DNA from: Desulfonatronum lacustre DSM 10312
Lineage (GTDB): Bacteria > Desulfobacterota > Desulfovibrionia > Desulfovibrionales > Desulfonatronaceae
NCBI RefSeq assembly: GCF_000519265.1
Contig: NZ_KI912608.1
Coordinates: 2,327,313-2,391,312 of the forward strand
Direction: 5' to 3'
Length of the DNA: 64,000 bases
The translations under genes and the position numbers were made by a program. Positions within the stretch are counted from its first letter, which is position 1. Each line of letters opens with the position of its first letter. This document shows positions 42,732-55,614 of this stretch, piece after piece. The notes beneath the pieces are model-generated. The model was given only the letters and a program-made list of their open reading frames with translations, did no database searches and was not told the DNA's origin.

Positions 42732-42883
42732 GATCGTGCCTCTCGAAGGTTATTGTCAGACATATGGTGAATGGGTTACAGGGTTACTAAGTTAAGAGAA
42801 AATTTGCCCCGCGGCAAGCGACTCGCTCATTTTGCCAATTATATCGAGAGTGAATTGCCAACATCTTCAAGGAGATCATGTTC

Positions 42884-44125
42884 GTGAGAATTCACCATAT
42901 TCTTGTCATGGTTGCCGTGACCGGCCTTCTCCTCTCCTGTTCCCAAAGCGTCCATGACGACTCGCCCCTGAACGATGTTCCTGGTGTGAACGAATCGGAA
43001 ATTTTGATCGGCTCGTCGTTGGCGCTCAGCGGGCATGCCGGTTTTTTGGGAACACAGACCCTGAACGGGGCGTTGTCCTACATCAATCATGTCAACGAGC
43101 AGGGCGGGGTGCATGGACGCAAGATTCGGGTGATCGCCTATGATGACGGATATGATCCGCCAAGATGCCTTGCGAACACGCAGAAGCTGATCGTTGACGA
43201 CCAAGTTTTCGCGCTCTTCAGTTACGTCGGCACTCCGACCACTGTCAAGATTCTCCCATTGATCGAGCAAGCTCAAATACCCCTCCTGGGAATCTTCAGC
43301 GGGGCGAACGCGTTTCGGGAACCGTTCAATCGGAATATCGTAAATATTCGGGCCTCGTACTATCAAGAAACTCAGGAAGTCGTTCGCCATTTTGTCGAAG
43401 ACCTCGGCCTGACCAGGATCGCCGTATTTTATCAATATGACGCGTATGGTTTCGATGGATTGAAAGGAACCGAGCTGGCCCTGCGGGCGTATGATTTGGC
43501 GCCGGTGGCCAGGGGCAGTTACACCCGCGGCACCCAGGACATTGATGAGGGCTTGGAGGCCATCATGGAATCCCAGGCCGAGGCCGTGATCATGGTCGGA
43601 ACCTACGACGCCTGCGCGAAGTTCATCAAGCAGGCCCGTTCTCGCGGGTTCTCTCCACTATTTCACAACGTTTCGTTCGTGGGATCCGAGGAATTGGCCC
43701 GCATCCTGGGCAAGGACGGAGACGGGGTCATCATCTCTCAGGTGGTTCCTCCTCCGGACTCGCTGGAATCGCAAGCCTTGCTGTGGGGCGTGGTGGAGTA
43801 TCTGGAGCGGCACAAACGTGCCTTTCCGGAGGATCAGCCCAACCTTGTGGCCCTGGAAGGCTACATCAACGCCAAGGTCTTGGTGGAGGGGCTGCGACGG
43901 GCTGGACGCAACCTGAGCAGGGCGCGCTTCATCGACGCCATTCAATCCATCCAGAACTATTCCCTGGGCATCGCCAACACCCTGTCTTTCGGGCCGACGA
44001 ACCATCAAGGGTTGGAGCGGGTTTACTTCACGATCATCCAGAATGGACGGCTGGTGATCTTGACCGATTGGAACCGGCTCACGGCGGAAGTACGGCATGA
44101 TCCGTCGGCGACTTGTTCGGAATAG
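42884..44125 (+). CDS. Periplasmic ligand-binding lipoprotein (branched-chain amino acid type)
   Basis: The protein is a type I periplasmic binding protein of about 413 residues. The signal peptide ends in the lipobox LLLSC, anchoring it to a membrane. IGSSLALSGHAGFLG and NGALSYINHVNEQGGVHGRKI are the classical Leu/Ile/Val-binding signatures. GTG 42884 is preferred over ATG 42878 because AAGGAG is then nine bases away. No permease or ATPase gene accompanies it. It stands directly before a histidine kinase, so a sensory role (ligand reporting to the kinase) is more likely than uptake. That is inference. Confidence 0.85.
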   Translation: MRIHHILVMVAVTGLLLSCSQSVHDDSPLNDVPGVNESEILIGSSLALSGHAGFLGTQTLNGALSYINHVNEQGGVHGRKIRVIAYDDGYDPPRCLANTQKLIVDDQVFALFSYVGTPTTVKILPLIEQAQIPLLGIFSGANAFREPFNRNIVNIRASYYQETQEVVRHFVEDLGLTRIAVFYQYDAYGFDGLKGTELALRAYDLAPVARGSYTRGTQDIDEGLEAIMESQAEAVIMVGTYDACAKFIKQARSRGFSPLFHNVSFVGSEELARILGKDGDGVIISQVVPPPDSLESQALLWGVVEYLERHKRAFPEDQPNLVALEGYINAKVLVEGLRRAGRNLSRARFIDAIQSIQNYSLGIANTLSFGPTNHQGLERVYFTIIQNGRLVILTDWNRLTAEVRHDPSATCSE

Positions 44126-44130
44126 ACCCC

Positions 44131-46158
44131 ATGCCGGATACGAAACGGTTCGGATCGACCCCGAGGAGCATGATGAGTTCCTTGCGAGAAGCCAGCCTCA
44201 AGAACAAGATATTTTTCTCCACCCTGGCCATGGTGTTGGTCATCAGCGCGGCCATCGCCCTGTTGGCGAGGTGGATTCTGATCTCCAGCCTGGTCAATGA
44301 ACTGACCGGTCGCGGCATCGCCATCGCTCAAAGCATTGCGGACCAGGGCCGCGGCTACGTGTTGACCCGGGACCACCCGAATCTGGTCAGTCTGATCTTT
44401 GACGCGGCCCAACTCGGCGAGCGGCGGATGCTCGTGGAATACATCTTTATCCTGGACGATGAGCGAAACGTCCTGTCGCATACCTTCATCCGTCCGTTTC
44501 CGGAACCGTTGATTTCCGCCAACCCCATTCCAGCGGACAAGCAGTACAGCGTGACCAAGTTGATCATCGACGACGCCTCGGTCTACGACATCGCCGTGCC
44601 GATTTGGGAAGGCATCTACCCCATCGGCACCGTTCACGTCGGTTTGAAGCAAAAACACATCGACCAGTTAATCGGCAAGTTGCGCATTACATTCCTTGGC
44701 TTTATATGCGCAATTTTCCTTATTATTTTTCTTGTCAGCCATAAACTCTCCAAGTACGTGACCAGATCGTTGACCCAGTTGACCAAACTGGCCGACGAGA
44801 TCACCCGGGGCAACCTGGACATGAAACCCTTGGGACTGGAGGATGCGGACAAGGAGGAGCACTGTCCGGCCTACTACAACATGGACCTGCCCTGTTGGTA
44901 CGTGGACAAGACCCTGGGCCGGGTCAGCCCCGACTACACCCCGGAGAAACCCGCCTACTGCACGGATTGCGTGGTCAAAAAGAAAAAGTCCGGCGACGAG
45001 GTGGAACAGCTGGCGGATTCCTTCAAGCACATGGTTCGCAGCATCAAGCTCTACCGCAACCGAGTCCGGGAGTCCGAGGAAAAATACCGCTCCCTCTTCC
45101 GAAGCGGTCCGGCCCCGATTTTCGTGCTCAGCACCCGCACATTCCGAATTTTGGACGCCAACCCCAGCGCCTTGAGCACGTATGACTATTCCAAGGAGGA
45201 GATGCTGAAGACGTCGTTTCTGGAGCTGGCGCCGGAGTTCAAGAATCGGTTTACCGCCTATTTCCAGGACAATCCTGGCGCTGAAAGCTTCATCTATCCC
45301 AAGGCCATGCATTTCAAGAAAGGGGAAGTGCCCTTTTACGTGAACGTGGTGGCCTGCAAAACGCGCTACCTGGAACGCGACGCGATCATCGTATCCACCT
45401 CGGACATCACGGAAATGCTGGAAAAAGACGCCCAGTTGATCCAGGCCAGCAAAATGACCAGCCTGGGCCAGCTTTCCGCGGGGATCGCCCATGAACTGAA
45501 TCAACCGTTGAACATGATCAAGATGGGCAGCGAATTCCTGGACATGGCGGTGAATGAGCAAATGCCGCTTTCCAACGAAAGTTTGTGCGAAATCAGCAAT
45601 GAAATGAGCGCCCAAGTAGACCGGGCAACGGAGATCATCAATCATTTAAGGGAATTCGGCCGTAAGTCGGACTTCTCCAAGGAGCCCATCGACATCAACA
45701 AGCCGGTGCGCGGAGTGATGTCCATCATGGCCCATCAGTTGAGCCTGCAAAACATCGTTGTTACCCTCGACCTGGGCGAGAACCTTCCACCGGTGTCGGC
45801 TCATGTGAATCGTTTGGAACAGGTCTTGTTCAATCTGGTCACCAATGCCAGGGATGCGATTCAAAGCCGCTACAAGACCCTGGAAGAGGAAGGACGCCGG
45901 GAGATCGTGATCCGCTCCTTCCTGGATCAAGACCGGGTTTGTCTGACCGTGTCGGATACCGGGTGCGGAATGAGTCCGTCCGTGGCGGAAAAGATTTTCG
46001 ATCCGTTTTTCACTACAAAACAGACGGGGATGGGCATGGGGCTTGGGCTGTCCATTTCTTACGGCATCATCAAGGATTATGATGGGACTATCGACATTAA
46101 GAGTGAGGAGGGTGAAGGTACGACCTTCGTGCTTTCGTTTCCCGTTACTCAGGAATGA
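44131..46158 (+). CDS. Membrane histidine kinase with HAMP, four-Cys insert and PAS
   Basis: The domain order is two membrane helices (IFFSTLAMVLVISAAIALLA and ITFLGFICAIFLIIFLVSH) bracketing a periplasmic sensor of about 150 residues, HAMP, a cysteine insert (Cys245, 255, 277 and 280, with HCPAYYNMDLPCW and YCTDC), PAS (about 320-430), dimerisation helix with His454 in AGIAHELNQPLNM, and ATPase with NLVTNARDA and GMGMGLGLSISYG. The insert resembles the two-CW type metal or redox motif of other deltaproteobacterial sensors. The start is uncertain (TTG 44113, ATG 44131, 44170 or 44173). It is in the same operon as the binding protein and receiver-STAS gene. Confidence 0.9.
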   Translation: MPDTKRFGSTPRSMMSSLREASLKNKIFFSTLAMVLVISAAIALLARWILISSLVNELTGRGIAIAQSIADQGRGYVLTRDHPNLVSLIFDAAQLGERRMLVEYIFILDDERNVLSHTFIRPFPEPLISANPIPADKQYSVTKLIIDDASVYDIAVPIWEGIYPIGTVHVGLKQKHIDQLIGKLRITFLGFICAIFLIIFLVSHKLSKYVTRSLTQLTKLADEITRGNLDMKPLGLEDADKEEHCPAYYNMDLPCWYVDKTLGRVSPDYTPEKPAYCTDCVVKKKKSGDEVEQLADSFKHMVRSIKLYRNRVRESEEKYRSLFRSGPAPIFVLSTRTFRILDANPSALSTYDYSKEEMLKTSFLELAPEFKNRFTAYFQDNPGAESFIYPKAMHFKKGEVPFYVNVVACKTRYLERDAIIVSTSDITEMLEKDAQLIQASKMTSLGQLSAGIAHELNQPLNMIKMGSEFLDMAVNEQMPLSNESLCEISNEMSAQVDRATEIINHLREFGRKSDFSKEPIDINKPVRGVMSIMAHQLSLQNIVVTLDLGENLPPVSAHVNRLEQVLFNLVTNARDAIQSRYKTLEEEGRREIVIRSFLDQDRVCLTVSDTGCGMSPSVAEKIFDPFFTTKQTGMGMGLGLSISYGIIKDYDGTIDIKSEEGEGTTFVLSFPVTQE

Positions 46159-46172
46159 ATGGAGGCTGGCTG

Positions 46173-46901
46173 ATGCGCAAAATACTCGTTATCGACGATG
46201 AAAAGCCGACCCTGTCCATGTTTCGCCTGTTTTTGAACGCCTACGGATTTACGGTGTTCACCGCGGAGAACGGCGAGGATGGGTTGGTCGTTTTCCAAAA
46301 AGAGCAACCGTCCATCGTGATTACGGACATCAAAATGCCCGGGATGGACGGCCTGGAGGTCCTCAAGCGCATCAAGGAGATCAATCCCCTGGCTGAAGTG
46401 ATCATCATCACCGGACACGGGGACCTGGATCTGGCCATCCGTGCGCTGAACATGAACGCCACGGACTTCATCAACAAGCCGATTCAGAAAGCCGCCCTGG
46501 ACCAAGCCTTGCGACGCGCCGAGGAACGGCTGACCATGGCCGAAAACGAGGAAAGGGAGATTTCCTGGGTCCAGGAGGACGATATGGCCTGCATCGACAT
46601 CCGCGGCAACGTCAACGCCGCCTCCGAGCCGGTGCTATTGGAGGCTTACGGTCACATCTCGGCCTGGAACGTCCCCAAAATTCTTTTTCGCTTCAACGAG
46701 AACGCCTCGATCAACGGCGCCGGCATCGCCGTTCTGATCCAGCTCCTGACGGAGAGCAAGCAGCGCGGCCAATCCGTGATCCTCACCGGTCTGGCCGAGA
46801 ATTTTCGCAAGGTGTTCGAAATGGTCGGGGTGACCAAACTGGCCCGGATCGTTCAGGATGAAGCCGAGGCGCGCTCCGTGTTGAGCGGCATGCCGGCTTG
46901 A
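46173..46901 (+). CDS. Response regulator with receiver and STAS domains
   Basis: The N-terminal receiver (1-120) is complete: acids D8-D9, phospho-acceptor Asp52 in VITDIKMPGMDG, and Lys102 in FINKPI. The C-terminal half (about 130-240) is a STAS domain like anti-sigma-factor antagonists: DDMACIDIRGNVNAASEP, then ASINGAGIAVLIQLLTES. At the site that anti-sigma kinases phosphorylate (DSSG), it reads NGAG, so Ser phosphorylation is lost. No DNA-binding domain exists; output is probably by protein contact with a partner switch. ATG 46173 with GGAGG gives 242 residues, 14 bases after the kinase gene. Confidence 0.9.
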   Translation: MRKILVIDDEKPTLSMFRLFLNAYGFTVFTAENGEDGLVVFQKEQPSIVITDIKMPGMDGLEVLKRIKEINPLAEVIIITGHGDLDLAIRALNMNATDFINKPIQKAALDQALRRAEERLTMAENEEREISWVQEDDMACIDIRGNVNAASEPVLLEAYGHISAWNVPKILFRFNENASINGAGIAVLIQLLTESKQRGQSVILTGLAENFRKVFEMVGVTKLARIVQDEAEARSVLSGMPA

Positions 46902-46934: not shown

Positions 46935-47498
46935 ATGCGCGGATTTACAGGCAGATACTTGGTTCTGGTATGGTTGTCGCTGGCGTTGCTCGTCGGCCAG
47001 GCTTTCGCCGCAGGACCTCTGGGCGTCGGTGAACGACATCCGGAGATTTTGGCCTTTACGTTCCCCGCTCCGGAGGTCCCGGACCATCGAATTTACCTGA
47101 GCCTCGAGGAGGAACAGGACAGCTTGGCTTTGGCGGACATGGAGCGGGACCTCTTTCTGATTGAGATCGTCGGCGTTTACTGTCCTATCTGCCATAACCA
47201 GGCTCCGGACATCCTGCGCCTGTACCAACGAGTTCAGCGCGACGCGGAAATGGCGGGCAAGGTAGCCATGGTCGCCGTGGCCGTCGGAGCCACGCCGATG
47301 GAAATCGCGCACCTTCACCGGACATGGCGCTTTCCCTTTCCCATTCTTCAGGATGGGGACTATGCCTTGCACAAACTGATCGGTGAACCGGACACCCCGT
47401 ACACCTTTATCCTGGATCGTGACGGCTCCGTCCTCTACACTCACCTGGGCCGCACGGATATCGACAGTCTCTTCAATCGGCTCAAACAGTTACCCTGA
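46935..47498 (+). CDS. Exported thioredoxin-like protein (redoxin, TlpA/ResA type)
   Basis: The 187-residue protein has a signal peptide ending AFAA (about residue 26). The mature part has the thioredoxin fold with Cys83-Pro-Ile-Cys86 in VGVYCPICHNQAPDIL and the cis-proline segment PDTPYTFILDRDG. Such proteins reduce or oxidise periplasmic thiols. It lies between the receiver-STAS and rhodanese genes in one orientation with a gap of about 70 bases. A membrane partner could be the MauE-like protein encoded downstream. That link is inferred. Confidence 0.88.
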   Translation: MRGFTGRYLVLVWLSLALLVGQAFAAGPLGVGERHPEILAFTFPAPEVPDHRIYLSLEEEQDSLALADMERDLFLIEIVGVYCPICHNQAPDILRLYQRVQRDAEMAGKVAMVAVAVGATPMEIAHLHRTWRFPFPILQDGDYALHKLIGEPDTPYTFILDRDGSVLYTHLGRTDIDSLFNRLKQLP

Positions 47499-47570: not shown

Positions 47571-49331
47571 ATGGATCAGCGCCGGGCTCCGAACCCCTCA
47601 GCGGGACCGCCTTTACAGCCCCCTGTAGAGGCTTCCAGAGAGTCATCCGGAGAGCGTCGTGCCTTTCATCTGGACGCCTTGTTCGAGACGGTCAGCGAAC
47701 TGAGTCGGTTGACCGACCCGAAGGAGGTCATGGAGACTTTCGTCCTGATGAGCATGGGGGCTCTGGGAACGGCTCAGGGCTTGCTCGTTGCCCAGGATCG
47801 CCGTTCAGGCCGGCAGCATCTCGTCTTGCGCGGACTGCCCGAGTCCGACAAGGAACGGCTGCCCGATGCAGTTCAGTCCGTATCCGCCAAAATCCACAAC
47901 GAAGGCGAGATGCTGTCCCGGCAGGTTCTGGTCGTGGTGATCAACGAGTCCCCCGAAAAGCCCGGTCTGCCCGAGCCGTTGCGCGTCGTGGTGGAGTGGT
48001 ACCTGGACGAGCATCGTTTCGGAGTCTTGGGCTATGGCCCCAAGGTCAACGGCTCGGCCTACGACCACCAGGATGAAGATTTCGTGCTGCAACTGGTCAC
48101 GGCCTTTATGGACGCCCTGGCCTCCGCAAGCGTGAATGAGACCATCCGCGGCCTGAACGAAGAACTGCAAGCGAGAAACACCGAGCTTCAGGGGGCGTTG
48201 CTGGCTTCCCAGGACATCCAGACCCGCCTGGATCGCCGTTACTTTCACTTCAAGTCCATCTGCGACACCACTCGGGAACTCAGCGGAAACCTCCACGCCA
48301 AGACCCTGCTCTCCTCATTTCTCCTGTCGGTCATGGGCACGTTCAGCGCCCAACAGGGGTTCATCGTGCTGTGGGATCGACGTGACAACCGGATCGAAAT
48401 CGTGACTCGAGGGTTCGGCGACGATACTTCTCCGGTCTTTGATGCCCAGCGCTTGGATGCCGTCTTCCGTTCCCTGCTGCATCCTCCGTTTGTCCCGGCC
48501 CAGGGAGAAAAGCACTATCAGGTGCTGACCCAAGACGAACTCCAGGCCTTGGAATTGGCCGAGACGTCGCAAGTCGGCGCCGCGTTCCTGTTGGATGACA
48601 ATTGGTATGGGCTCGCGGGAATCGGAAACAGTCTTGCCCGGTCCGAGGACGATCAAGGGGAGCGGGAATTGTTGCCCGCCCTGCTCCAGGGCTTTCTGGT
48701 CAGCCTGGGCAATGCCCTGGCCTTTGAAACCATCCAAAAACTGAACAGCGACCTGTTGCGCAAAAACGCCGAACTGCGCCAAACATTGGACGAACTGCAA
48801 CAAAGCCGCCAGACCATCAGCCTGCTGGAGGCGACCGCCAATCGCTTCAGCTCCTTGCTGCGCTCCGAAACCCTGCGCATTAAACGGGTAAGCCTGTTCG
48901 ATTGTCTGGCTTTGGCCTTGGTCAGTCTGGTCCTGGCCTTGGTCTTCAACGCCTCCAGTCCCGGCGGCATTTCGCTGTTGCCCGAAACCTGGGGTCAGCC
49001 TCGGCCCGATTATATCGACGTGGCCTGGGCCAAGCTCAAGCATGAGTCACAAGGCGCGCTGTTTTTAGACGCTCGGCCCACGGAGTTTTACAATCAGTCG
49101 CGTATCGTCGGCGCGGAGAATCTGCCTTTGAACCTGTTCGACTTCGTCTATTCCATGCGCTTCGCCATGCTGGATCCGGAAAAGGACGTTGTCGTCTACG
49201 GCCGCAACATCAGTAGAAGATATGACGAACAGGTGGCGGCCAAGCTCAAGGAGCGCGGCATGGTCAATGTGCGGGTCATGGAAGGTGGCCTGCGGCAATG
49301 GCAACGCAACGGGCTTCCGGTGGAGCCATGA
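47571..49331 (+). CDS. GAF-GAF-transmembrane-rhodanese protein
   Basis: The 586-residue protein starts with two GAF-like sensory domains (about 35-190 and 215-390), separated and followed by coiled-coil stretches (LNEELQARNTELQGALLAS; NSDLLRKNAELRQTLDELQ). One membrane helix (FDCLALALVSLVLALVF) then leads to a C-terminal rhodanese domain (about 485-586; ARPTEFYNQSRIVGAENLP). The active-site cysteine position reads VVVYGRNISRR, with Gly where Cys is expected. If the GAF domains are cytoplasmic, the rhodanese fold faces the periplasm. No kinase or output enzyme is present. Its role is probably scaffold/sensor. Confidence 0.82.
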   Translation: MDQRRAPNPSAGPPLQPPVEASRESSGERRAFHLDALFETVSELSRLTDPKEVMETFVLMSMGALGTAQGLLVAQDRRSGRQHLVLRGLPESDKERLPDAVQSVSAKIHNEGEMLSRQVLVVVINESPEKPGLPEPLRVVVEWYLDEHRFGVLGYGPKVNGSAYDHQDEDFVLQLVTAFMDALASASVNETIRGLNEELQARNTELQGALLASQDIQTRLDRRYFHFKSICDTTRELSGNLHAKTLLSSFLLSVMGTFSAQQGFIVLWDRRDNRIEIVTRGFGDDTSPVFDAQRLDAVFRSLLHPPFVPAQGEKHYQVLTQDELQALELAETSQVGAAFLLDDNWYGLAGIGNSLARSEDDQGERELLPALLQGFLVSLGNALAFETIQKLNSDLLRKNAELRQTLDELQQSRQTISLLEATANRFSSLLRSETLRIKRVSLFDCLALALVSLVLALVFNASSPGGISLLPETWGQPRPDYIDVAWAKLKHESQGALFLDARPTEFYNQSRIVGAENLPLNLFDFVYSMRFAMLDPEKDVVVYGRNISRRYDEQVAAKLKERGMVNVRVMEGGLRQWQRNGLPVEP

Positions 49332-49807
49332 CGAAAAATCCGCTGGTCAGACTACTGACCCATGAGTACGTGGCCCTGGCACTGCGATTGTATATCGGCG
49401 GGCTGTTCATCTACGCGAGCATGTACAAGATCAGCTATACCGCTGAATTCGCGGAAACCATCGCCAGCTATCAGTTGGTCCCCTACTGGGCGGTGAACGT
49501 GCTGTCCGTGTTCATGCCCTGGTTCGAACTGGTTTGCGGCGTCTTATTGATCATCGGTTTCCGGGCCAAATCCGCTGTGGTGCTGATCGGCGGAATGCTG
49601 GTCATGTTCACCATTGCCGTGGTGGTCAACCTGCTGCGCGATTCGCCCATCCCCTGTGGTTGCTTCAGCAGTGTCGAGGACCCGATATCCTGGTGGACGG
49701 TGGTCCGCGACCTGATCTGGGTGGCCATGACCGTCCACATCTACTACTTCGACAAGATTTTGCACCTGGAGAACCATTTCACCTCCAGGATTGAAAAAAT
49801 TGCCTGA
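49328..49807 (+). CDS. MauE/DoxX-like redox-associated membrane protein
   Basis: The 159-residue protein has four membrane helices. A conserved PCGCFSS motif (Cys110, Cys112) follows the third, as in MauE and related proteins that pass electrons to periplasmic thiol proteins. ATGA overlap joins it to the rhodanese gene, so the two are translated together. ATG 49328 is chosen because it gives this overlap and has GGAG upstream. It may recycle the redoxin encoded two genes upstream. Confidence 0.85.
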   Translation: MTKNPLVRLLTHEYVALALRLYIGGLFIYASMYKISYTAEFAETIASYQLVPYWAVNVLSVFMPWFELVCGVLLIIGFRAKSAVVLIGGMLVMFTIAVVVNLLRDSPIPCGCFSSVEDPISWWTVVRDLIWVAMTVHIYYFDKILHLENHFTSRIEKIA

Positions 49808-50093: not shown

Positions 50094-50411
50094 ATGCTCA
50101 GATTACTTTGTCTCGGTGTAACAAGCTTGGCTTTTTTCCTGATCACTGCCTGCTCCGACCCGTCGCACCTGGTGGGCAAGTATCAAAGCCCTTCCGAGGC
50201 GGAGCATTTTGTGTTGCTGGACTTGCAGCCCAATGGTCAGGGGACCTGGGAGACGAATTTCGACGTGGTATCGTTTCGCTGGAAGCAGCGCGGGGGTGAG
50301 ATTTGGCTGCATACCCGAACCGGAGGCGTGATCACCGGGGACATCGTGGAGGCGACCCGGCTAAAAGTTGACATTCCCGGCGTCGGGGTGATCGTGCTGG
50401 AGAGGCAATAA
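50094..50411 (+). CDS. Small lipoprotein of unknown function
   Basis: The 105-residue protein has a lipoprotein signal peptide with lipobox LITAC. The mature part, about 85 residues, is predicted beta-rich (GKYQSPSEAEHFVLLDLQ, GTWETNFDVVSFRWKQRGG). The size and pattern recall small lipocalin-like or META-like periplasmic lipoproteins, but no family is recognised. It is flanked by two hairpin repeats. A short terminator (TGGGATGCGTTCCCA plus T7, 50475-50496) lies within the second. Confidence 0.72.
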   Translation: MLRLLCLGVTSLAFFLITACSDPSHLVGKYQSPSEAEHFVLLDLQPNGQGTWETNFDVVSFRWKQRGGEIWLHTRTGGVITGDIVEATRLKVDIPGVGVIVLERQ

Positions 50412-50627: not shown

Positions 50628-51353
50628 CTATCCGAAAATCCGTCTGGCCGGCGAGACTGCCTTGGCCAGAGCGGCTTTACGGCTGAGTACAGGGATGTCC
50701 GCGGATGCCACGGCATACCTGAAGTACTCCCGAGGATTGTCCTCGGTAAGGAAAATCACCCGGACGTCGTTGGGATCGGTCAGCGCGGCGTTGGGTTTGT
50801 ACTTCTTGACTTCTTCCAGCCGCTTTTTAGCGATTTCCAGGATTTCATCCGAATCCCCGAACTGCATGGTTCCGGTGGGACAGCTCAGCACACAGGCCGG
50901 GAGCAAACCGTTCTGAACCCGGTCGATGCACATGTCGCACTTGGTTTGGATTTTGGTTTCCTCACTCCAGCGAGGGATGTCGTACGGACAGGATTCCCTG
51001 ATCTGCTGGCCGTCCAGGTTCTTGGTCCGTTCCGTGAACAGGACCGCCCCGGTCTCCTGATCATGCAGAATGGCCTGATCGTCGTCATAGTCGCCGACCA
51101 TCTTGCAGGGTGGATAGACGCAGTGCCGGCACTGATCCGGAAAAAAGTACCACTGCTTGAACTTCTCACCGTCCATGGCCTCGGTCATTCGTACCAGCTT
51201 ATAGGTGATGAAGGACAGGTCCTTGGGGTTCTGAAACGAGCCCCAGTTTCTGGTTTCTTCCGCCGGGAGTTTCTTCCACTGCTTGCAGGCCACTTGGCAG
51301 CCCCGGCAGGCCGTGCACTTGGTCAGATCGACAAAGAAGCTTTTACCTTGCAT
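50628..51353 (-). CDS. fdhB: Formate dehydrogenase iron-sulfur (beta) subunit
   Basis: It carries electrons from the catalytic subunit. The 241 residues hold the cysteine clusters of a four [4Fe-4S]-type ferredoxin subunit: CTACRGCQVACKQW, CRHCVYPPC, a single CPYD, and CDMCIDRVQNGLLPACVLSC. No membrane helix is present, so it pairs with a soluble periplasmic catalytic subunit. AAGGAGG precedes the ATG. It starts 13 bases after fdhA. No gamma (cytochrome b) subunit or cytochrome c3 follows, and electrons probably go to the periplasmic cytochrome pool. Confidence 0.92.
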   Translation of the reverse strand: MQGKSFFVDLTKCTACRGCQVACKQWKKLPAEETRNWGSFQNPKDLSFITYKLVRMTEAMDGEKFKQWYFFPDQCRHCVYPPCKMVGDYDDDQAILHDQETGAVLFTERTKNLDGQQIRESCPYDIPRWSEETKIQTKCDMCIDRVQNGLLPACVLSCPTGTMQFGDSDEILEIAKKRLEEVKKYKPNAALTDPNDVRVIFLTEDNPREYFRYAVASADIPVLSRKAALAKAVSPARRIFG

Positions 51354-51366
51354 ATCGCACTCCTCC

Positions 51367-54300
51367 TTAGGCCTTGCGGATGTTGACCATGAATGTCTTG
51401 GTCTCGGGAATGAAGGTGTTCGGGTCGCCTACGGACGGCGTCAGCAGGTTGGCCGAATCGCCTCCATCACGAGGATGCACCCATCCGTAGTGCCATGTGG
51501 TGCCGACCATGTGAATGGTCTGGCCCATGGATTTTATCGGCTGTAGGCGAGGCGTGACGATGGCCACGGCTTCGATCTTGCCGCGCATGTTTTCCACGAT
51601 GACCTTGTCACCGCTTTCAATGCCGCGCAGCTTGCCCAGCTCGGGATCAATTTCCACGAAGTTCTGCGGCATGCATTCCAACAGCCAGGGCGTCCAGCGG
51701 GTCATGACCCCGGACTGCCAGTGTTCGGTGACCCGATAGGTCGTGCCCACGAAGGGATACCGCGGATCGCAAACCGCGCGTTTGATCGCTTCACCGGCGA
51801 ACTCCAGGGCCGTGGGATTGTGCAGACGGCTGGAGAAGGGATGCTCCTCAAAAGGACATTCCATGGCTTCGAAGTGCTCGGGGAAAGGACCGTCGGCCAT
51901 CCCCGGACCGAACAACCGGCCGTAGCCTTCCGCGGTCATGATGAAGGGATGCCGCTCGCTTGGTGCCCATCCTCCATCCGGCACATCGCCGACCCACTTG
52001 CTGCCGTCCCAGGCGATGACAGCCTTATGCGGCGCATAGGGCTTGCCTTGCGGATCGCAAGAGGCCCGGTTGTACACGATGCGGCGGTTCAGGGGCCAAG
52101 CCCAAGACCATGCCGGGAAGATGCCGATGTTGGCCTGCATTTCAGTCTGGGTCTTGTCGCGGCGGGCCATCATGTTGCCGGCTTCGGTGTAGCAACCGCT
52201 GTAGACCCAGTTGCCGCAGGCCGTAGAACCGTCGGCCTGGAGAGCGGTGAAGTTGGGCACCTGGGTTCCGGCCTTGTGGGTGGTGTCCCCAATCTTCACG
52301 TCCTTGACGAAGTAGCCGTTGAGCAGCTTGGCCACTCGATGCGGATCGAAATCGTGCGGGAACTTCTTGTCCGGATTGGTAACGCCAGCGGTGTTGAAGT
52401 TCATGATCGGATCCGGGAAAGCACCGCCTTCTTTTTCATACAGAGCGCGGACCCTGCGCACCAACTCCAGGGCCATGTCGCCATCCGGGATGCAATCGCC
52501 CATGGGCTTGGGACCGGCATAGCGCCACTGCACCCAGCGTCCGGAGTTGGAAATGGAGCCTTCCTTTTCGCACCAGACAGCCGGAGGCAAAACAAAGACC
52601 TCGGTCTTGACCTTGGCCGGGTCCATGTTCGGGCCTCTCCAGAAGGAGGCGGTTTCATTGTCGAACAGGTTGACCACTACCAGCCAGTCCAACTGGGCCA
52701 GAGCGTTTCTGGTCTTGTTGGAGTCCGCACCGCAGGCCGCCGGGTTCTGGCCCCAGGCAAAATAGCCTTTGAACTTGCCCTGAAGCATGTGGTCGAAGAG
52801 CACCAACCAGGAAGCGTTCTGGCCAGCGTCCAGCTTGGGCATGTAGTTATAGCTTTCGTTCGGGTCCTTGTCCGGATACATGGCCTTGAGCAGGCTGGCC
52901 ACGTACTTGGGTCTGTTCTGCCACCAGTTGGCGCTCTTGGGGTCGTTGGACACCGGAGTCGTGGCCTTCTGGTAGTCTTCGAAAGTGGCCATGGCAGCCC
53001 GGGGTGTGGGGTTATAGCCGGGAATAATGTGGAACAGCAGAGCCTGGTCAGTGGAACCCTGAACGTTGGACTCGCCGCGCAGGGCGTTCACCCCGCCACC
53101 GGCCATGCCCATGTTGCCCAACAGGAGCTGGATCATGGCCATGGTTCGGATGATCTGTGCGCCGGTGGTGTGCTGGGTCCAGCCCATGGCGTACATGATG
53201 GTCCCGGACTTGTCCGGAGCGCCGGTGGCCGCAAAGGTTTTGTACAGGGCCAGAAGCTGGTCCTGGGGTGTACCCGAGGTTTTTTCGATCCGGTCCAGAT
53301 CGTAGCGCTCGTAGTGCTTTTTCATCAACTGGAAGACGCAGTTGGGATCCTTCAGGCTGGGATCCTTTTTGGGGATTCCCTGCTCGTCCATCTGGAAGGT
53401 CCAGGTGGCCTTGTCGTAGGAAGCCGTCTCGGGATTGAAGCCGGTGAACAGGCCGTCCTCGAAACCGAAATCGGGATTCACCAGGAAGGCGGCGTTGGTA
53501 TAGTTGACGACGTAGTCCTTGAAGTACAGTTCGTTGTCGATGATGTACTTGATCATCCCACCCAGGATCGGGATGTCCGTTCCCGAACGCATGGTCACAT
53601 AGAGGTCGGACTTGGAGGAGGTCCTGTTGAAACGAGGATCCACGTTGACCAGGGTCGCGCCTTTTTCCTTGGCCTTCATGACCCATTTGAAAGAAACGGG
53701 ATGGTTTTCCGCCGGGTTGGCGCCCATCATCAAAATGCAATCACTGTTCATCAGGTCGATGTAGTGATTGGTCATCACACCGCGTCCGAACGACTCTCCC
53801 AGAGCCGCTACAGTGGCGCTGTGTCAGATCCGGGCTTGGTGTTCTATGTACACCAAGCCGAAGCAACGCATTAAGGAGGAGATGTACCAGCATTCCTCGT
53901 TGTCTAGAGCCGCTGAACCGGTATGGGCGATGCCGTCGGTGCGGTTGACCACTTGGCCTTGGGCGTTCTTGGCGACGAACGTGGCGTCACGGGCGTCCTT
54001 GACCTTGCGGGCGATCTGGTCCAGAGCCCAGTCCCAGGTCTTTTCCTCGAATTTGTCGGAGTTGGGAGCGCGGTAGAGAACCTTGGTCATCCTGTCGTTG
54101 TTTTCGACGAGCTGCCACAGGGAAGCACCCTTGGCGCACAAGGAGCCTTCGTTGATGGGATGGTCCGGGTCGCCTTCGATGTTTACGGCCCGGTCTTTGT
54201 AGGGACCGCTCTGGGCCGTATGCACGATCAGCCCACAGCCCACGGAACAGTAGCAACAGATTGAGGTTGTTTCCTTGGCCTCCTTCAACTGGAGCAATTG

Positions 54301-54405
54301 CGCCTTAGCCACGGTGGGCTTGAGGTCGAACCCCAAGCCACCGAAGGCCAGCGCCGAGCCGGCCACGGCTGAAAATTTAAGAAAATTCCTGCGGTTAATC
54401 TGCAT
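51367..54405 (-). CDS. fdhA: Formate dehydrogenase alpha subunit, selenocysteine-containing, Tat-exported
   Basis: It oxidises formate to CO2 at a molybdenum or tungsten bis-pterin site. The frame is open across an in-frame TGA at 53824-53826, read as selenocysteine 194 (ARI-U-HSATVAALG), as in FdnG/FdhA. The full product is 1012 residues. The N-terminus has a Tat signal (NRRNFLKFS) and a [4Fe-4S] motif CCYCSVGC. The rest is the molybdopterin oxidoreductase domain. Without Sec insertion, ordinary gene callers split the gene into 193- and 803-residue ORFs. AAGGAGG precedes the ATG. It is the first main gene of the fdhA-fdhB unit. Confidence 0.95.
53784..53826 (-). promoter_or_regulatory. Likely SECIS element after the selenocysteine UGA
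   Basis: The bases directly after the TGA read CACAGCGCCACTGTAGCGG, then CTCTGGGAGAG. They align with the E. coli fdnG hairpin (short stem, then a GU-containing apical loop) and can fold into a stem-loop. Bacterial SelB binds such loops within about 40 bases of the UGA. The exact fold is inferred by analogy. Confidence 0.6.
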
Positions 54406-54756: not shown

Positions 54757-55614
54757 TTACCCAAATTTTGGCACAAACCGGCAGAGCAGCCCAGCGGTTT
54801 CAGTGAAGATGTCCGCGTTGCGATGATTGTAGCGAAACTCCAGTTCCTTGACGTACAGGGGGAATTTTTCCGGAGAGAGGCCGCGGTAACGGCGGATCTT
54901 GTCCAGGAGGTAGGTGAGGAAGTCGGGGGAAGATCCGGGAGAGGGTGTTTGCGAAGGGAGGGTGAATTCCAGAAAACGGGGCGGAGGGGCTGTGGTGCAG
55001 AAGAGCAGGGCATGGTAGCGTTGGTACGGCGCGCTGAAGTAGGTCTTGCCCCAGTGCCCCAGTTCCAGACCGAAACTCTGGTGAAAGTGGAAGACCGTTT
55101 CAGGCCGCAGGCCGAGGACGAGGTCCACGAAGGCCACTCCGGAATGCTCAATGACCCCGAAAACCGGCGTGGAAAGCTTTGTGGATGGAACAACTCTCAG
55201 AACCCGACCGGAGGTGTTCAGCTCAATGCTCCGCTCCGGGCCGAAAAAATCCTTGGCGTCGATGGCGCTGGCCGCGATGGCGCAGCGGATGGTGGTCACG
55301 GCCTTGTACACCGTGTTATAGGCCAGATCCACCTCCTTGCTCATGGCCAGTACGGTCAGGTCCATTTCAAACAGCTTGATGATCCGTAGCCAATTCCGGC
55401 AGCTCAGGTCGCAGTTGTTGACCCAGCGTCCGCTGAAGTCATGGTAGGTGTAGGAACACTGAGCGCATCGGCGTCGGCGGTCGGTCAGAGGGTAGTTCTT
55501 ACGTTGCCTGCAGCGCGGGCAGAACCGCTGGTGGTTTTTCCAGCAAAATTTCAGCAGATAGCGACGAGCCGTGGATTCGCTTTTTATGTAGTGTTCATAG
55601 TCGATTAACCGCAT
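54757..55614 (-). CDS. IS1595-like transposase homologue, catalytic residues apparently lost
   Basis: The 285-residue protein has the N-terminal zinc ribbon (Cys32-x2-Cys35, Cys50-x2-Cys53) and helix-turn-helix (YNTVYKAVTTIRCAI) of the IS1595/ISXO2-like group. In active relatives the DDE site starts with VDE-TYFGG and continues VYTDGW/KY. Here the matching positions read SIELNTSG and KTYFSAPYQRY, without the two aspartates. The C-terminal ELEFRYNHR is kept. No terminal inverted repeats or target duplication could be found around it. It may be a decayed element or a domesticated protein. Confidence 0.75.
   Translation of the reverse strand: MRLIDYEHYIKSESTARRYLLKFCWKNHQRFCPRCRQRKNYPLTDRRRRCAQCSYTYHDFSGRWVNNCDLSCRNWLRIIKLFEMDLTVLAMSKEVDLAYNTVYKAVTTIRCAIAASAIDAKDFFGPERSIELNTSGRVLRVVPSTKLSTPVFGVIEHSGVAFVDLVLGLRPETVFHFHQSFGLELGHWGKTYFSAPYQRYHALLFCTTAPPPRFLEFTLPSQTPSPGSSPDFLTYLLDKIRRYRGLSPEKFPLYVKELEFRYNHRNADIFTETAGLLCRFVPKFG

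Follow-up and report, generated by a model that had tools for sequence, protein, structure and literature searches.

Serine-based partner switching and aspartate-based two-component signaling are usually studied as separate currencies. Described systems touch this locus on several sides. According to the openly accessible portions of the published reports, the HsbA-HsbD and SiaC-SiaD pairs of Pseudomonas aeruginosa are cases in which a STAS-type protein governs an effector other than a sigma factor (PMC5085249, PMC8457831). SiaC, a STAS-like protein, uses residues N67, T68, and S69 to contact the helical stalk of its cyclase partner SiaD, and it no longer binds once T68 is phosphorylated (PMC8457831), whereas in the HsbA-HsbD pair the phosphorylated STAS protein is the binding form (PMC5085249). 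Two-component input to partner switching is represented, in the accessible text, by the RsfR/HsbR receiver-PP2C regulators (PMC10950880, PMC5085249) and by TciR of Vogesella indigofera, in which a receiver served by a sensor kinase is fused to a partner-switching module (PMC12826045). A literature search confined to open PMC text found no paper describing a receiver-STAS protein.

Here we describe such a protein from Desulfonatronum lacustre DSM 10312, encoded in a stretch of 64,000 nucleotides (the window). A first-pass annotation, made from the letters of the window, had proposed that its STAS domain has lost the serine phosphosite and that control has passed from a serine kinase to aspartate phosphorylation. 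We compared the gene, its STAS relatives, and its neighborhood across genomes of the same order and phylum.

Results

The receiver-STAS protein and its phosphosite

The gene and its parts are as follows.

46173..46901, + strand: receiver-STAS response regulator (open reading frame of 242 amino acids; Pfam and AlphaFold model)
46182..46511, + strand: receiver domain, residues 4-113 (Pfam Response_reg, E 3.5e-30; conservation)
46326-46328, + strand: predicted phospho-acceptor D52 of the receiver domain
46569..46871, + strand: STAS domain, residues 133-233 (Pfam STAS, E 4.8e-7; SpoIIAA/TM1442 alignment)
46713..46724, + strand: NGAG motif, residues 181-184, where DSSG is expected (family alignment)

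The receiver active site is intact, as had been claimed: D8, D9, D52, T80, and K102 are all present in the window protein, and in the family alignment of 43 homologues D8, D9, and K102 occur in 43/43 and D52 and T80 in 42/43. The STAS part matches PF01740 with 30 bits against a Pfam cut-off of 22.6. An AlphaFold model of the 242-residue protein, built from the 43-sequence alignment, contains both the receiver and the STAS folds (mean pLDDT 88.0, pTM 0.77); Foldseek searches with this model matched receivers throughout and were uninformative for the STAS half. The 43 rows were assembled without L006, a duplicate of the window, and L060, a STAS-only piece, and the second receiver-STAS copies of three genomes (G008, G021, and G047) are placed outside these rows and inside the 89-row STAS table described below.

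At residues 181-184 the 43 homologues read NGAG (39), SGAG (2), NGTG (1), or NGGG (1). The phosphosite position, G182, is glycine in all 43, and the phosphorylatable Ser/Thr that SpoIIAA/RsbV-type proteins carry at the DSSG site is absent. A STAS profile built from 34 of the 43 rows matches TM1442 (1sbo), SpoIIAA (1auz), and the anti-sigma-B antagonist in the PDB, and the family profile aligns to SpoIIAA and TM1442 through the site without a gap, so that G182 falls on the first serine of DSSG, which we take to be Ser58, the phosphosite of SpoIIAA. As judged from these alignments, the serine-less NGAG is a trait of the whole family and not an oddity of one gene, in agreement with the original reading of the window protein.

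A near-invariant serine, Ser179 (41/43), does lie three residues N-terminal of G182, and a serine displaced by a few residues was the outcome that would have undone that reading. The gap-free alignment to SpoIIAA places Ser179 before the phosphosite, which rules out a serine hidden by an alignment shift; phosphorylation of Ser179 itself could be imagined in principle.

Four receiver-STAS proteins (L185, L187, L191, and L192) keep a serine at the site as NSAG, so its loss is not obligatory, and one of the four sits in the full operon (L211). Another member, L055/L151 of genome G052, has glutamate in place of D52, has no binding protein or kinase nearby, and retains NGAG.

Ancestry of the STAS domain and exchange of its kinase

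Searching 395 genomes of the phylum with the STAS profile (E up to 1e-6) gave 141 places in 115 genomes, and the nearest receiver-less matches retain serine (NSGG, NSSG, and NSIG). A tree was computed from 73 STAS domains with the motif columns left out and L219 dropped; in it, the 52 receiver-STAS rows make up one side of a branch with support of 97/94, and the Ser-bearing STAS-only proteins fall outside it. One receiver change and three Ser/Gly changes are needed on this tree. Forcing the 48 Gly-bearing receiver-STAS proteins together was not rejected (p-AU 0.325), and both a single loss of serine and a single loss followed by later regains are thus compatible with the data.

The residue at the site was set against the presence of a serine kinase gene by scanning 86 loci with profiles for the STAS family, the GAF domain, and RsbW-like kinases, which yielded 89 STAS rows, close relatives of each other among them; a gene counted as adjacent when it had the same orientation and lay no more than 1.5 kb away. 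RsbW-adjacent STAS proteins bear Ser/Thr in 25 of 25 cases (24 Ser, 1 Thr, and 0 Gly), and an RsbW-like kinase gene directly precedes the nearest STAS-only relatives. Receiver-STAS proteins bear Gly in 46/50 and Ser in 4/50, and within 1.5 kb the profile scan placed an RsbW-like gene beside 0 of these 50. The 14 rows with neither a receiver nor RsbW divide into 8 Ser, 5 Gly, and 1 Val, which means that glycine arises also in other kinase-less STAS proteins. Because the rows share descent, the contrast between Ser with RsbW and Gly with a receiver represents one evolutionary event and not 75 independent ones. Read in that way, the single clade, the Ser/Thr of all RsbW-adjacent proteins, and the sensor kinase gene that directly precedes receiver-STAS in 37 of 40 loci support the proposed passage from serine-kinase to aspartate control as an evolutionary rewiring.

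The genome search for RsbW-like kinases that the first-pass annotation had suggested was productive in itself, with nine HATPase_c_2 matches over the Pfam cut-off, including one beside its own Ser-bearing STAS gene, plus HATPase-STAS fusions, but none of these proteins is linked to receiver-STAS. A stand-alone small HATPase that resembles RsbT is encoded at G000:C1:2642171-2642578, about 4 kb from a degenerate STAS-like gene.

The conserved gene cluster

Conservation of the cluster was assessed by tblastn of the window genes over 40 receiver-STAS loci (the window and 39 others). Around the receiver-STAS gene, which stands third, the genes are, in order:

42878..44125, + strand: periplasmic ligand-binding protein, Peripla_BP_6 (Pfam E 8.2e-60; present in 36/40 receiver-STAS loci)
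44113..46158, + strand: sensor histidine kinase with sCache_3_2, HAMP, a four-Cys segment, PAS, HisKA, and HATPase_c (Pfam; start codon uncertain, TTG)
46935..47498, + strand: redoxin-family protein with a C-x2-C pair, C83 and C86 (Pfam Redoxin; both Cys in 28/28)
47571..49331, + strand: candidate effector anchored by a membrane helix, with tandem GAF domains, long helices, and a Cys-less rhodanese (AlphaFold, Foldseek, Pfam Rhodanese)
49298..49807, + strand: MauE/DoxX-type integral membrane protein with a Cys pair, C120/C122 (Pfam MauE E 1e-27; Cys in 22/22)
50094..50411, + strand: small lipoprotein-like protein, last of the conserved cluster (conserved across loci; no Pfam match)

The binding protein is likely the input of the sensor kinase, and the redoxin-family protein is probably exported, to judge from its hydrophobic N terminus. 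No sigma factor gene is found in the cluster. Between HAMP and PAS, the kinase carries four cysteines (C251, C261, C283, and C286, spaced C-x9-C-x21-C-x2-C) that are invariant in 36/36 sequences and likely form a metal or redox site. In locus L062 (2324-4652) the kinase match is interrupted, and a 695-residue open frame is called between its halves. Two loci have a second, divergently oriented receiver-STAS paralogue adjoining the main cluster (L161 at about 5674 and L169 at about 13412; 45-49% identity, NGAG kept).

A selenocysteine-type formate dehydrogenase, fdhAB (50628-54405, - strand, with FdhA in two frames), adjoins the cluster, and formate dehydrogenase genes with at least 54% identity were found by tblastn within the stretch examined in 24 of the 40 receiver-STAS loci. 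In an alignment to 6sdr, the window FdhA retains the cysteine pair that aligns with the redox switch of D. vulgaris FdhAB, which we take to be C845 and C872 of that structure. The activity of the D. vulgaris enzyme, according to the accessible text, is governed by a disulfide redox switch (PMC11134731). An IS1595-type zinc-ribbon protein (54757-55614, - strand) lies beside fdhA or the cluster in 17/40 loci; its four zinc-ribbon cysteines are invariant (11/11), and it looks like a domesticated transposase.

A GAF-rhodanese protein as candidate effector

The GAF-rhodanese gene lies downstream of receiver-STAS in 28/40 loci. No Pfam GAF match was obtained for its 586-residue product. The AlphaFold model has two GAF-like domains with long helices as well as a rhodanese fold, and we read its helix at 443-462 as a membrane anchor; the best PDB matches of this model in Foldseek are tandem-GAF and phytochrome proteins. 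Within the rhodanese loop (residues 540-553), G544 and S548 are invariant in 29/29 sequences, and D552 is also invariant. On our assignment of the loop position, G544 occupies the place of the usual catalytic cysteine, and a comparison of 24 sequences showed no conserved cysteine. The protein would then be a pseudo-rhodanese carried on a tandem-GAF membrane anchor, devoid of the catalytic cysteine of active sulfurtransferases.

With a GAF profile built solely from window-type proteins (18 domains), 63 matches were obtained in 50 of the 395 phylum genomes, 45 of them lying outside receiver-STAS operons. A STAS-family gene stands directly upstream on the same strand of 21 of these 45 (chance, about 1.5e-4 per match), and a STAS gene directly precedes every one of the nine best-scoring outside matches. 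The order RsbW-STAS-GAF recurs in 20 loci, where the gene upstream of STAS encodes an RsbW-like HATPase, fused to an AAA domain in the three that were scanned. Among those scanned with Pfam, the STAS-linked GAF proteins carry HD-GYP-type HD (HD_5), HisKA, or guanylate-cyclase outputs. STAS and GAF scores are correlated over 20 cassettes (Spearman 0.76), as expected for co-inherited genes.

The alignment reaches into a helix preceding the GAF domain (start at or before profile position 20) in 21/21 STAS-linked proteins versus 4/24 others (p 4.9e-9), and we infer that this helix is a candidate docking site for STAS. The pattern LN..L...N..L occurs in the effector helices of most window-type GAF proteins and of two near relatives (L206 and L208); it is missing from the HD-GYP-type GAF proteins and was not relied on as a docking motif. 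One widespread form of the cassette (L242-L255 and L269) combines an RsbW-like kinase, a Ser/Thr STAS, and a GAF protein, with the kinase fused to AAA and the GAF protein bearing HD_5 in the three scanned, and is likely a partner switch that uses a serine kinase to control c-di-GMP turnover.

Co-occurrence of effector and receiver-STAS

The 61 genomes of the order divide into 29 with receiver-STAS, of which 23 contain the window-type GAF effector, and 32 without receiver-STAS, of which none does. The effector was not found anywhere in the remaining six receiver-STAS genomes (G012, G013, G017, G029, G052, and G053) and was also missing from three of nine genomes reached through other loci, so the GAF protein cannot be the sole target. 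We looked at whether loss of the partner is reflected in the STAS domain, with mixed results: in five of the six effector-less genomes, four of these five belonging to one family, the domain is more divergent than its receiver would lead one to expect, and three further effector-less loci have no excess STAS divergence. In G052, the absence of the GAF effector is accompanied by loss of D52 and of the kinase neighborhood. Either further targets exist in the effector-less genomes, or some of these systems are decaying.

Discussion

Our findings describe a family in which a two-component receiver has joined a STAS domain whose closest relatives are served by a serine kinase. On balance, the protein is probably a response regulator with a STAS docking output, descended from an RsbW-STAS-GAF cassette whose GAF partner was kept. 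Several other readings must be weighed against this one. The reading nearest to the first-pass annotation is that STAS is still an anti-sigma antagonist, binding an RsbW-like anti-sigma factor encoded elsewhere in the genome and gated by aspartate phosphorylation only. The likeness of its fold to SpoIIAA and the anti-sigma-B antagonist speaks for this, as does the presence of RsbW-like proteins in the genome, but the well-matched RsbW among them has its own adjoining Ser-bearing STAS, no RsbW gene lies within 1.5 kb of any of the 50 receiver-STAS genes, and the cluster is without a sigma factor. The anti-sigma-like partner that had been expected thus failed to appear; the conserved neighbor of receiver-STAS is the GAF-domain membrane protein of the same operon, not RsbW, and we consider an anti-sigma role quite improbable.

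It is also unlikely that the STAS domain acts on a target outside the cluster (another kinase, a cyclase, or the sensor kinase itself) while the GAF-rhodanese genes are simply co-transcribed. In several lineages the binding protein, kinase, and receiver-STAS do occur as a trio without the GAF effector, and NGAG persists there, as such a target would lead one to expect; yet none of the 61 genomes of the order has the effector in the absence of receiver-STAS, and the effector's GAF family is tied to STAS genes in unrelated cassettes. The lower conservation of STAS than of the receiver, seen in every row of the 43-row alignment that was compared, might instead mark the domain as a decayed, dimer-forming appendage beside a receiver that acts alone in the manner of CheY. 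That account can be given very little credence, in view of motif positions that are near-invariant across families in the receiver-STAS comparison and of the sole member with a decayed receiver (L055), which keeps NGAG.

The docking response regulator that we favor would work in the following way. The sensor kinase would be set by an extracellular ligand arriving through the periplasmic binding protein, possibly together with redox state, and would phosphorylate D52 of the receiver. Phosphorylation would alter the availability of the STAS domain; SiaC and HsbA respond to phosphorylation with opposite signs, and the sign in receiver-STAS is therefore not predictable from them. STAS would dock on the cytoplasmic GAF and helix part of the GAF-rhodanese protein, whose gene is the second one downstream; the SiaC-SiaD contact offers a structural precedent for such docking. 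The docked effector may then set a periplasmic module made up of the Cys-less rhodanese domain, the redoxin, the MauE-like protein, and the lipoprotein.

The history of such a system would begin with a STAS member of a cassette of RsbW-like kinase, STAS, and GAF effector. A receiver would have been fused to STAS, the serine kinase would have left the locus, the phosphoserine would have given way to glycine, and the GAF-effector partner would have been retained. The comparison documents the sequences, the folds, the gene order, the loss of serine together with the adjacent kinase, and the homology of STAS and GAF across both cassettes, and the simplest account of these appears to be that the STAS-GAF pair is old and its controlling kinase was exchanged.

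A more ambitious version adds that RsbW was replaced outright by the kinase and receiver-STAS, that glycine makes for an always docking-competent STAS gated by the receiver alone, and that the GAF partner relays the signal across the membrane to a thiol-redox module in the periplasm which, lying beside fdhAB in many genomes, could set the formate dehydrogenase disulfide switch. We offer this only tentatively and doubt that all of it will hold. Its last step is a guess from gene order, namely, that a two-component system with thiol-type output genes by fdhAB could control the FdhAB disulfide switch.

If the favored account is right, sulfate reducers present a natural case of signaling rewiring, in which a serine switch was swapped for an aspartate switch and the downstream target was apparently kept, with the receiver-STAS proteins that still bear serine as surviving intermediates. 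The comparison also furnishes a testable rule for STAS proteins: Ser/Thr where an RsbW kinase adjoins, absent in the receiver-STAS family. It suggests that GAF domains are the partners of STAS in a widespread cassette whose outputs can be exchanged, and it singles out a candidate system by which sulfate reducers could control the periplasmic redox proteins encoded near formate dehydrogenase.

Measured against the systems with which we began, the locus shares something with each. With the SpoIIAA/RsbV antagonists it has in common the STAS fold and an alignment that is gap-free around the phosphosite; it differs in having glycine for the phosphoserine, an N-terminal receiver, and no RsbW kinase or sigma factor at the locus. 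As in modules of the HsbA-HsbD and SiaC-SiaD type, a STAS gene lies near a signaling effector of a STAS-linked family. Control of HsbA and SiaC, as covered by the accessible text, works through phosphorylation of these STAS-type proteins on Ser/Thr, whereas here the STAS domain is fused to a receiver and the candidate effector combines tandem GAF domains, a membrane anchor, and a Cys-less rhodanese. In TciR, according to the accessible part of that report, the module fused to the receiver is an RsbW-like domain and not STAS (PMC12826045). RsfR and HsbR, again as far as the accessible text extends, alter the serine phosphorylation of a separate STAS protein, whereas in this family STAS itself is without the phosphosite. 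Open PMC text did not yield the combination of a receiver with a phosphosite-less STAS that takes over the GAF effector of an RsbW cassette. The parts of the system belong to known kinds, and what appears to be new is their combination.
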